Of a DNA stretch of 64,000 nucleotides, positions 59,875 through 61,825 are shown piece by piece. A model generated the notes under the pieces. It had not been told where the DNA came from, did no database searches, and saw nothing but the letters and a program-made list of their open reading frames with translations. Position numbers and translations under genes: made by a program. Each line of letters begins with the position of its first letter. Positions within the stretch are counted from its first letter, which is position 1. The stretch is from contig NZ_LQZA01000001.1 of NCBI RefSeq assembly GCF_001581925.1, forward strand, positions 186,001 to 250,000. The letters run 5' to 3'. This stretch comes from Ferrovum sp. PN-J185. GTDB lineage: Bacteria > Pseudomonadota > Gammaproteobacteria > Burkholderiales > Ferrovaceae.

Positions 59875-59910
59875 TTGCACTCTTTTAAAAAATGGGTAAA
59901 ATTCCCATTT
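59875..59910 (+). promoter_or_regulatory. Promoter with inverted repeat ahead of the DUF5666 gene
   Basis: TTGCAC (59875-59880) and TAAAAT (59897-59902) with a 16-base spacer make a fair sigma-70 promoter. An inverted repeat, AAATGGG (59890-59896) and CCCATTT (59904-59910), encloses the -10, so a bound repressor would block RNA polymerase. Confidence 0.45.
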
Positions 59911-59938
59911 ATGGCATACTACCTAAGGGAGAGCAATC

Positions 59939-61765
59939 ATGGGGTTTTTAACGCAAAAGAGATGGACGGGAATTATTGTATTTTTGTCTTTAATAGGATT
60001 GGTTTCCTGCGGTGGCGGAGGAGGGGGAGGAACCTCAAGTTCTGCTACACCAACCTCATTACAATCAACTGCGACAGTCTCAAATGGAACAGTTACAGCG
60101 CTGGGCAGTGTGTTTGTTAACGGACATGAGTTTGATACTTCGTCAGCGAATATAGTGGATGCGGATACCGGTATTGTTAACAGCTCACTCAATTCCGCGC
60201 TATTGAGTAGCGGACTACTTTCACCTGTGGTCGGAATGACTGTGGCAGTGAATTCAGCCACGAACAGTACTGTGGCGGTGCCCGTTGCAAAAGAAGTAAG
60301 AATTACGCCTTTGGTACGCGGCTATGTTGATGCCAGTGACATGACAGCAGGAACAATTACAGTAATGGGGCAAACTATTCAGATTACTTCAAGTACGTCT
60401 TTTACAGATAAACGAGCTTGTACAACAGGTATCACATCATGTGTTCCTGTTACAGGACAAAGCAACTTACAGAGTACAAGTGGTAACGTTGTTGGAACCT
60501 ATGTGATTGTTTATGGTTATTCTTATGCACAGTCAGGATCCTCCATGGCACAAATTGTGGCTACGATGGTGAGTGCTTGGGATGAAACTAATACTGTATT
60601 TACACAACCTTTCACTACAGATAATGGTGTGAGCACAGAACTTTATCCATTTAAAGTGTCAGGGGCAGTGAGCTTAGCAAATGGTATTTATACTGTTGGC
60701 AATGAAACCATTAATTTGGCTAGCGCAACTTGTACGATTAATAGCGTGACATCAGTGTGCTCTACCATTCCCAATGGTGCTATGATCTCAGCGCGCGGAA
60801 TTACCCAGCCTGTAATAGGAACAAATACATTCGTACCGAATGTAGTGAGCGCATTTACTGGAACGAGTGCAATTAATCCAGGTGGTTCAACACTACAAGT
60901 TGGTCAAACCGTGGAAATTGAGGGCACTGTTTCACTGGTATCTGGTACAAATTTTGTTGTACGTGGTATTACTATTGATGGAAGTCAGTTAACAACAAAC
61001 TTTCCTACAGTGGGAGCGAAAGTAGAGTTTACGGGTACAGTTAACGCAAATGGATCAATTGTTGCTTCTGCAGTTCAGTCTGAACTCTCCTCAACACTAT
61101 CCAGAACAATTTTTACTGCACCAATTACCGTAGCAGCTATTACCAGTGGTGCTACAGCAGCCACTAATTGTGCAGCGTCTTTACCCGCTTACACAGTAAC
61201 AATTTTAGGGCAACCAGTAGTAGTTGACTGTAATACTGAAATTGCTGATCGTACAGCGACGACTTTTGCTGCATTTAATATTACTAATTTCTCATCTTAT
61301 TTGGCCTCTTTGGCTACAGCCACATCTAGTCCTACTGTATACACTGTGATTTCAACTTATTTAGATGCATCATCAATCCGTCGCGCCACAGGTATCAGTG
61401 TTATCAAAGCACCTACAACAGGATTTGTGAGTGTTTCAGGTTTGGCTACAACAGGAACTAGTGCAGTAGGTCTTACTCCTATTGTGGTCCAAGGAGTAAC
61501 TGTTGATTTTGGTTCAGCCACAACTACTATTTTAGTAAATAACTCACCAACTACCTCTAGTTCGTTAAGTATTAATGCCGGCGATTATGTTACTGCTGTT
61601 GGTGCAGTTAATACTACTAATGCCAGTGAGGTGAATACTAATATTGCAACAGGTGTATTAGCAGTGGTTCAACAGGGAACTATGCAAAATAACGCCAACA
61701 CTCACCTTGGAGAAAGCGGTGATCATGGCGGTGGCAATATAGGTTTCCGAGGTTTTGATAATTAA
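59939..61765 (+). CDS. DUF5666 repeat lipoprotein
   Basis: The 608-residue protein is probably a surface or periplasmic lipoprotein. Residues 1-24 form a signal with a lipobox ending at Cys (LVSC), directly followed by seven glycines and a Ser/Thr-rich linker. The remainder is made of beta-rich units with a recurring pattern resembling DUF5666: GTVTALGSVFVNGHEFDTS (about 50-68), a second unit near VRGYVDASDMTAGTITVMG, a third near VEIEGTVSLVSGTNFVVRGITIDG and a last one near FVSVSGLATTGTS. Six cysteines in the body could form disulfides. Composition is rich in Thr, Ser, Val and Asn. Function is unknown. It stands as a single-gene unit with its own promoter and terminator, and AAGGGAGAG is the ribosome site. 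Confidence 0.85.
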   Translation: MGFLTQKRWTGIIVFLSLIGLVSCGGGGGGGTSSSATPTSLQSTATVSNGTVTALGSVFVNGHEFDTSSANIVDADTGIVNSSLNSALLSSGLLSPVVGMTVAVNSATNSTVAVPVAKEVRITPLVRGYVDASDMTAGTITVMGQTIQITSSTSFTDKRACTTGITSCVPVTGQSNLQSTSGNVVGTYVIVYGYSYAQSGSSMAQIVATMVSAWDETNTVFTQPFTTDNGVSTELYPFKVSGAVSLANGIYTVGNETINLASATCTINSVTSVCSTIPNGAMISARGITQPVIGTNTFVPNVVSAFTGTSAINPGGSTLQVGQTVEIEGTVSLVSGTNFVVRGITIDGSQLTTNFPTVGAKVEFTGTVNANGSIVASAVQSELSSTLSRTIFTAPITVAAITSGATAATNCAASLPAYTVTILGQPVVVDCNTEIADRTATTFAAFNITNFSSYLASLATATSSPTVYTVISTYLDASSIRRATGISVIKAPTTGFVSVSGLATTGTSAVGLTPIVVQGVTVDFGSATTTILVNNSPTTSSSLSINAGDYVTAVGAVNTTNASEVNTNIATGVLAVVQQGTMQNNANTHLGESGDHGGGNIGFRGFDN

Positions 61766-61791: not shown

Positions 61792-61825
61792 AGAGCCTAG
61801 AAGTTGTATTTTCTAGGCTCTTTTT
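61792..61825 (+). terminator. Intrinsic terminator, probably bidirectional
   Basis: An 11-base stem (AGAGCCTAGAA 61792-61802 with its complement at 61811-61821) with an 8-base loop is followed by TTTT. It ends the DUF5666 unit. The glnD stop lies at 61824-61826 on the other strand, so the same hairpin can end glnD, although the T-run on that side is weak. Confidence 0.85.

Follow-up and report, generated by a model that had tools for sequence, protein, structure and literature searches.

A DUF5666 lipoprotein gene and its promoter

The window analysed here, a stretch of 64,000 nucleotides of the Ferrovum sp. PN-J185 genome, contains a lipoprotein gene with the following features (positions are those of the window):

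59875..59880, + strand: −35-like hexamer TTGCAC, by reading, 3/6 to consensus; its TTGC is kept in 4/4 genus genomes
59890..59910, no strand assigned: candidate operator palindrome AAATGGGTAAAATTCCCATTT, core TGGG-W7-CCCA at 59893-59907; core invariant in 4/4 genus genomes
59897..59902, + strand: −10-like hexamer TAAAAT at the centre of the palindrome, 16 nt past the −35-like hexamer; invariant in the genus
59925..59933, + strand: Shine-Dalgarno-like AAGGGAGAG, by reading
59939..61765, + strand: DUF5666 lipoprotein gene (ORF of 608 aa, ATG start, Pfam)
59999..60010, + strand: lipobox LVSC with Cys24, by reading of the translation
60011..60031, + strand: poly-glycine tether of 7 Gly, then Ser/Thr-rich sequence, by reading
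60092..61624, + strand: about six DUF5666 units (own profile, Pfam, OB-like folds in the structure model)
61792..61821, + strand: terminator-like hairpin between the lipoprotein gene and the convergent glnD

The 608-aa product reaches the gathering score of Pfam DUF5666 (PF18914), with 42.5 bits against a cut-off of 27 and three matching stretches. NCBIfam gave no match for this protein (P0001), for P0002 or for the second lipoprotein described below (P0003), and a PDB sequence search with the lipoprotein alignment returned 0 matches. By reading, the protein has a bacterial-lipoprotein signal peptide with lipobox and cysteine, and the glycine stretch that the original prediction placed after that cysteine is indeed there, as seven Gly directly following Cys24. 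The protein would be lipidated and exposed at the surface, and judging from these features anchoring in the outer membrane is plausible. A DUF5666 profile built for this analysis gave eight matches, some of them half units (residues 52-111, 127-204, 244-289 + 307-331, 328-379, 417-440 + 489-507 and 514-562), which we interpret as some six units spanning residues 52 to 562. An AlphaFold2 model made from an input of 15 sequences (mean pLDDT 66) is predominantly beta and has a few short helices, and Foldseek found short matches to the OB folds of Ten1, RPA14, CcmE and PilY2 (probability 0.97-1.00, E 0.006-0.09, at this pLDDT of 66); the lone match at E 0.001 or better was a cold-shock-domain chain. 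The model would make OB-like barrels of the several beta units proposed earlier.

Upstream on the same strand lie an NTP transferase gene, which we take to be galU, and then def (deformylase), an order kept in 4/4 genus genomes. A homologue of the lipoprotein was found in 8/41 genomes searched, among them 4/4 of the own genus; one of the seven named-genome loci found with the lipoprotein belongs to an uncultured Ferrovum sp.

The −10 had been described as lying inside an inverted repeat, and TAAAAT does fall within an exact palindrome (59890-59910), with the arms AAATGGG-N7-CCCATTT surrounding it. The −35-like hexamer starts at 59875, which accounts for the start coordinate given in the original prediction. 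Judged against consensus the promoter is weak, and simple consensus promoter scans reported nothing at it. The block of −35-like hexamer, −10 and palindrome is nevertheless retained as a whole in 4/4 genus genomes.

The palindrome recurs at a DUF6502 operon

The strict pattern TGGG-W7-CCCA occurs at exactly 3 sites in the 1.89-Mb genome and at 0 in the reversed control; so matched, the palindrome is beyond chance. All 3 sites fall at two loci, each encoding a poly-Gly lipoprotein. Looser matching blurs this picture. With up to two mismatches, at least one such site appeared in 26/100 shuffles of the window, and the whole genome gave 10 places versus 14 in the reversed control, so that this loose genome scan is uninformative. 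The one-mismatch scan gave 21 sites including the 3 exact ones (control 11). Fourteen of the 18 inexact sites were inspected (those at C2:190016, C3:170988, C3:198203 and C5:106274 were left out): 12 are inside genes, one is at the 3' end of a small gene, presumably rpsO, and the site at L245:2354 alone is at a promoter.

Besides the copy in the window, the strict palindrome recurs twice, at the locus of the following gene, which lies ~199 kb from the lipoprotein gene on the same contig:

G000:C1:445217-446176: DUF6502 gene (Pfam PF20112, 82.2 bits against a cut-off of 27, gathering score reached)

The two sites, at C1:445151 and C1:445190, are 39 bp apart upstream of the DUF6502 operon, between the DUF6502 gene and a divergent 146-aa ORF for an apparently exported protein. 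A second lipoprotein gene starts 18 nt past the DUF6502 stop; its 578-aa product carries LSSC-GGG and misses the PF18914 gathering score (10.5 bits, or 14.9 in another search, against 27; Pfam E 0.81), so by sequence it is at most weakly DUF5666-like. The observation behind the original prediction is confirmed, and its guess of a repressible promoter and a regulon is supported: the palindrome stands also at an unlinked locus, whose genes encode another poly-Gly lipoprotein and a protein predicted to bind DNA. The refutation it had named, a repeat found nowhere else and unconserved in relatives, fails, since the repeat recurs in the genome and is kept in relatives. Its description of the gene as stand-alone remains apt for gene position and gives way for regulation.

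Predicted fold of DUF6502

The DUF6502 structure model (mean pLDDT 82) predicts a DNA-binding fold. Helices 63-70 and 74-89 form a helix-turn-helix (HTH) spanning the conserved TDS...L.G..RKDV, and Lys43, Arg74, Trp112 and Gly262 are invariant columns across 50 DUF6502 sequences. VIA matched residues 34-99 to a TetR-type HTH (Z 7.5 at best, with 58 aligned at rmsd 2.1) and residues ~100-171 to winged helices; VIA itself rates Z values up to 7.5 as middling, and none of 8 was reached for this model. The best Foldseek match was a HetR-DNA complex at E 0.012, with nothing at E 0.001 or better, and no TetR ligand domain was noted among the fold matches. A PDB sequence search with the DUF6502 alignment gave five rows, four of them designed or without a natural name and one ParA; the ParA row (E 0.34) was the sole PDB match with a stretch that passed.

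Sites in the promoters of DUF6502 genes

DUF6502 was detected in 28/32 genomes of the family and in 31/200 sampled genomes of the order, and we examined 58 loci (27 from the family and 31 from the order, a G046 fragment being left out). Exact TGGG-N7-CCCA lies upstream of DUF6502 at 8/27 family loci, with a density of 1.434 per kb versus 0.025 elsewhere in the loci (57x), and at 9/31 order loci, with 1.041 versus 0.027 per kb (39x). These are 12 and 10 upstream sites, where shuffling gave averages of 0.08 and 0.23. With the relaxed TG[GT]G-N7-C[CA]CA and a wider search interval, 30/58 loci have a site; the 28 without one even under this pattern include eight of genus g2 in which the DUF6502-DUF5666 arrangement is kept.

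At 13/58 loci the site exactly fills the gap between −35- and −10-like hexamers, an example of an operator placed in the gene's own promoter being L036:9191-9205, flanked by TTTACT and TAAAAT. Because 5-9 nt separate the −10 from the ATG at 12 of these 13 loci (e.g. L036:9191-9220 and relatives), a leaderless DUF6502 mRNA is predicted, and family DUF6502 genes seem to be translated in this manner. The L036 locus also holds a conjugation/type IV secretion-like gene cluster (L036:492-5281), whose genes we take to encode an ATPase, a coupling protein and a signal peptidase and to adjoin serC-like and serA-like genes.

By our own profile, 43/58 DUF6502 loci have a DUF5666 gene downstream and on the same strand; the 15 loci without one include the own operon, whose lipoprotein has diverged too far for the profile. 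Sites with at most one mismatch to TGGGA-N5-TCCCA accompany 24/42 RKD-type recognition helices, 4/13 others and 0/3 proteins in which no helix was found, with L112 and L113 scored as misses, their site being just beyond the interval used. This link between recognition helix and site is no more than suggestive.

Conservation of the sites in genus and family

Each of the four genus genomes searched (G000-G003) carries a single site at the stand-alone gene and a pair at DUF6502, and the site cores are invariant across the genus while the surrounding sequence varies. The 32 family genomes gave 28 strict sites in 14 genomes (control 6). Promoters of DUF6502 or stand-alone DUF5666 genes account for 17 of the 28; a further two are at redoxin-DUF3570-ApbE runs, two at DUF6627 genes, one at a Gly-rich lipoprotein and two at Thr-rich proteins, and the last four are either artefacts or unclear. 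In genus g6, which includes a Ferrovum bin, homologues of the stand-alone gene have similar sites in 3/5 upstream stretches read, namely CGGGATAATATCCCA (L182), TGGGAAACTATCCCT (L184) and TGGGAATCTATCCCA (L181); none was seen by eye in the upstream stretches of L183 and L186, and L185 is cut by a contig end.

Several sites were rejected as regulon members. One strict site of G001 (L095) is within tRNA-Ser(GGA), the G005:C16 site is inside a coding frame (presumably that of ribosomal protein L17), and those at G018:C61 and G047:C69 were kept out as being without a clear target. At the order level, L216, L217, L223, L226 and L228 are inside reading frames and L232 is in another tRNA-Ser. The tRNA-Ser(GGA) genes at L095:4037-4127 and L232:2820-2910 hold TGGGATAATATCCCA or its reverse complement and so are a false positive of operator scans. 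Thr/Gly-rich proteins without a Pfam match (L090:680-1438 and L093:4335-5048) adjoin a strict site in two genera.

Candidate regulon members beyond the lipoproteins

In the own genome one more site, TGGGAAAAATTCACA (C5:62353), lies upstream of a gene pair (L245:281-2344, that is, G000:C5:60280-62343). The first gene encodes a small membrane-type protein with poly-Gly, the second a 574-aa protein that combines Sel1 repeats with a caspase (C14) domain. This site is conserved in G002 and G003, and G001 lacks a close homologue.

Exact TGKGA-N5-TCMCA occurs near the start of 8/20 family DUF6627 genes versus 0/178 background windows (20 loci, one dropped as it had no ORF), the other 12 having no site, and by sequence the regulon seems to include DUF6627 genes. 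The form of the site in genus g3 is TGTGA-N5-TCACA both at DUF6502 (L121, L124) and at DUF6627 (L273, L274, L278). In genus g2 both promoters are without such a site. That the site has changed in step at the two genes is our strongest evidence for a single protein reading both promoters. G005 has a g3-type DUF6627 site, yet DUF6502 was not found in this 83%-complete genome.

The flavinylated redox clusters in which, according to PMC8238504, ApbE flavinylates DUF3570 are a further point of contact: G007 and G009 each have a redoxin-DUF3570-ApbE run with a strict site in front of it (assigned by Pfam for the G007 run and for the G009 redoxin and DUF3570). The difference is that DUF3570 was found in 3/32 family genomes, the own genome not being one of them. 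In the third DUF3570 genome TGGGAAATTTTCACA is present within the stretch examined.

Discussion

We think it probable that DUF6502 is a DNA-binding repressor of its own operon and, in trans, of the 608-aa lipoprotein gene. In the mechanism that we infer, Cys24 would be lipidated once the signal peptide is cleaved from the exported lipoprotein, and the poly-Gly/Ser tether would hold some six OB-like DUF5666 units off the membrane. A DUF6502 dimer would bind TGGG-N7-CCCA over the −10 of the lipoprotein gene, and it would likewise repress its own operon of DUF6502 and the second poly-Gly lipoprotein, where one site fills the −35/−10 spacer; covering these elements, the dimer would exclude RNA polymerase. 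An envelope signal would release DUF6502, and with both promoters under its control the two lipoproteins would rise together. Since a flavin-linked extracytosolic redox operon appears to be co-controlled in two relatives, our guess, made with little confidence, is that the signal is envelope redox or metal.

DUF6502 might instead bind the site and activate, or do either depending on the promoter. Operators at the −10 or in the spacer usually block polymerase, and MerR-type activators work from the spacer. The positions of the sites, over the −10 at the lipoprotein gene and filling the spacer at DUF6502, make activation unlikely, although the own operon's second site, 39 bp further upstream, would fit activation or control of the divergent gene.

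A possible objection of much the same, low probability is that the palindrome belongs to another regulator, which binds it and governs the two lipoprotein loci, with DUF6502 as a target rather than the binder. TGGGA-W5-TCCCA does occur in 20/169 order genomes without detected DUF6502, versus 12/31 with it (two surveys combined, their order sample taken as identical from the genome handles), and the sites number 37 overall versus 5 in the control. Five of the sites in genomes where no DUF6502 was found are TTGGGAA-N5-TTCCCAA-like palindromes (L219, L220, L221, L224, L225) beside genes that we take to be TonB-receptor-like or histidine-kinase-like; a similar palindrome is thus probably in use by another protein, and at these five places a different regulator probably acts. 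Against extending this to the lipoprotein loci, we note first that many genera have the site in the promoter of the DUF6502 gene itself. Second, an HTH is predicted in the DUF6502 model. Third, the site changes in parallel at DUF6502 and DUF6627 promoters. Fourth, the half-sites at those five palindromes are TTGGGAA, not ATGGGAA or GTGGGAA.

That the palindrome arose by chance in an A+T-rich promoter is very improbable: the loose counts would suit it (10 versus 14 in the control at two mismatches; 18 one-mismatch sites besides the 3 exact, control 11, with 12 of 14 inspected inside genes), and the strict count, the location, the genus-wide conservation and the enrichment upstream of DUF6502 all speak against it.

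Among known families these proteins stand as follows. The lipoprotein resembles other DUF5666 (PF18914) proteins in passing the Pfam cut-off and in its poly-Gly after the lipobox, which is common in the relatives read; it differs in that its gene is apart from any DUF6502 gene, whereas 43/58 DUF6502 genes have a downstream DUF5666 gene. The regulator gene (G000:C1:445217-446176) is a member of PF20112, an entry that gives no function. With its own-promoter operator and the TetR-like HTH of its model, DUF6502 would resemble TetR-type autoregulated palindrome-binding repressors, but it has a second, winged-helix-like part and its Z values are middling. No mention of DUF6502 or PF20112 was found in the literature searched; in the portions of it consulted, mentions of DUF5666 are confined to two gene tables, a feature table and one sentence, and no function is given for PA2779.

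A broader reading, which we consider about evenly balanced, is that DUF6502 is an undescribed, order-wide repressor family with the operator TGGGA-N5-TCCCA and genus variants such as TGTGA-N5-TCACA, its mRNA often leaderless. Its envelope regulon would comprise OB-string DUF5666 lipoproteins, PA2779-type DUF6627 proteins, a poly-Gly membrane protein with a caspase-like/Sel1 partner and sometimes a flavinylated redox operon. What is new is a predicted regulator-operator pair that links two families of so far unassigned function. DUF6502 gains a predicted role, that of an operator-specific repressor, with an exact DNA target; DUF5666 is placed in a regulatory setting and given an OB-like fold by prediction; and the operator can help to list more envelope genes that share DUF6502 control.
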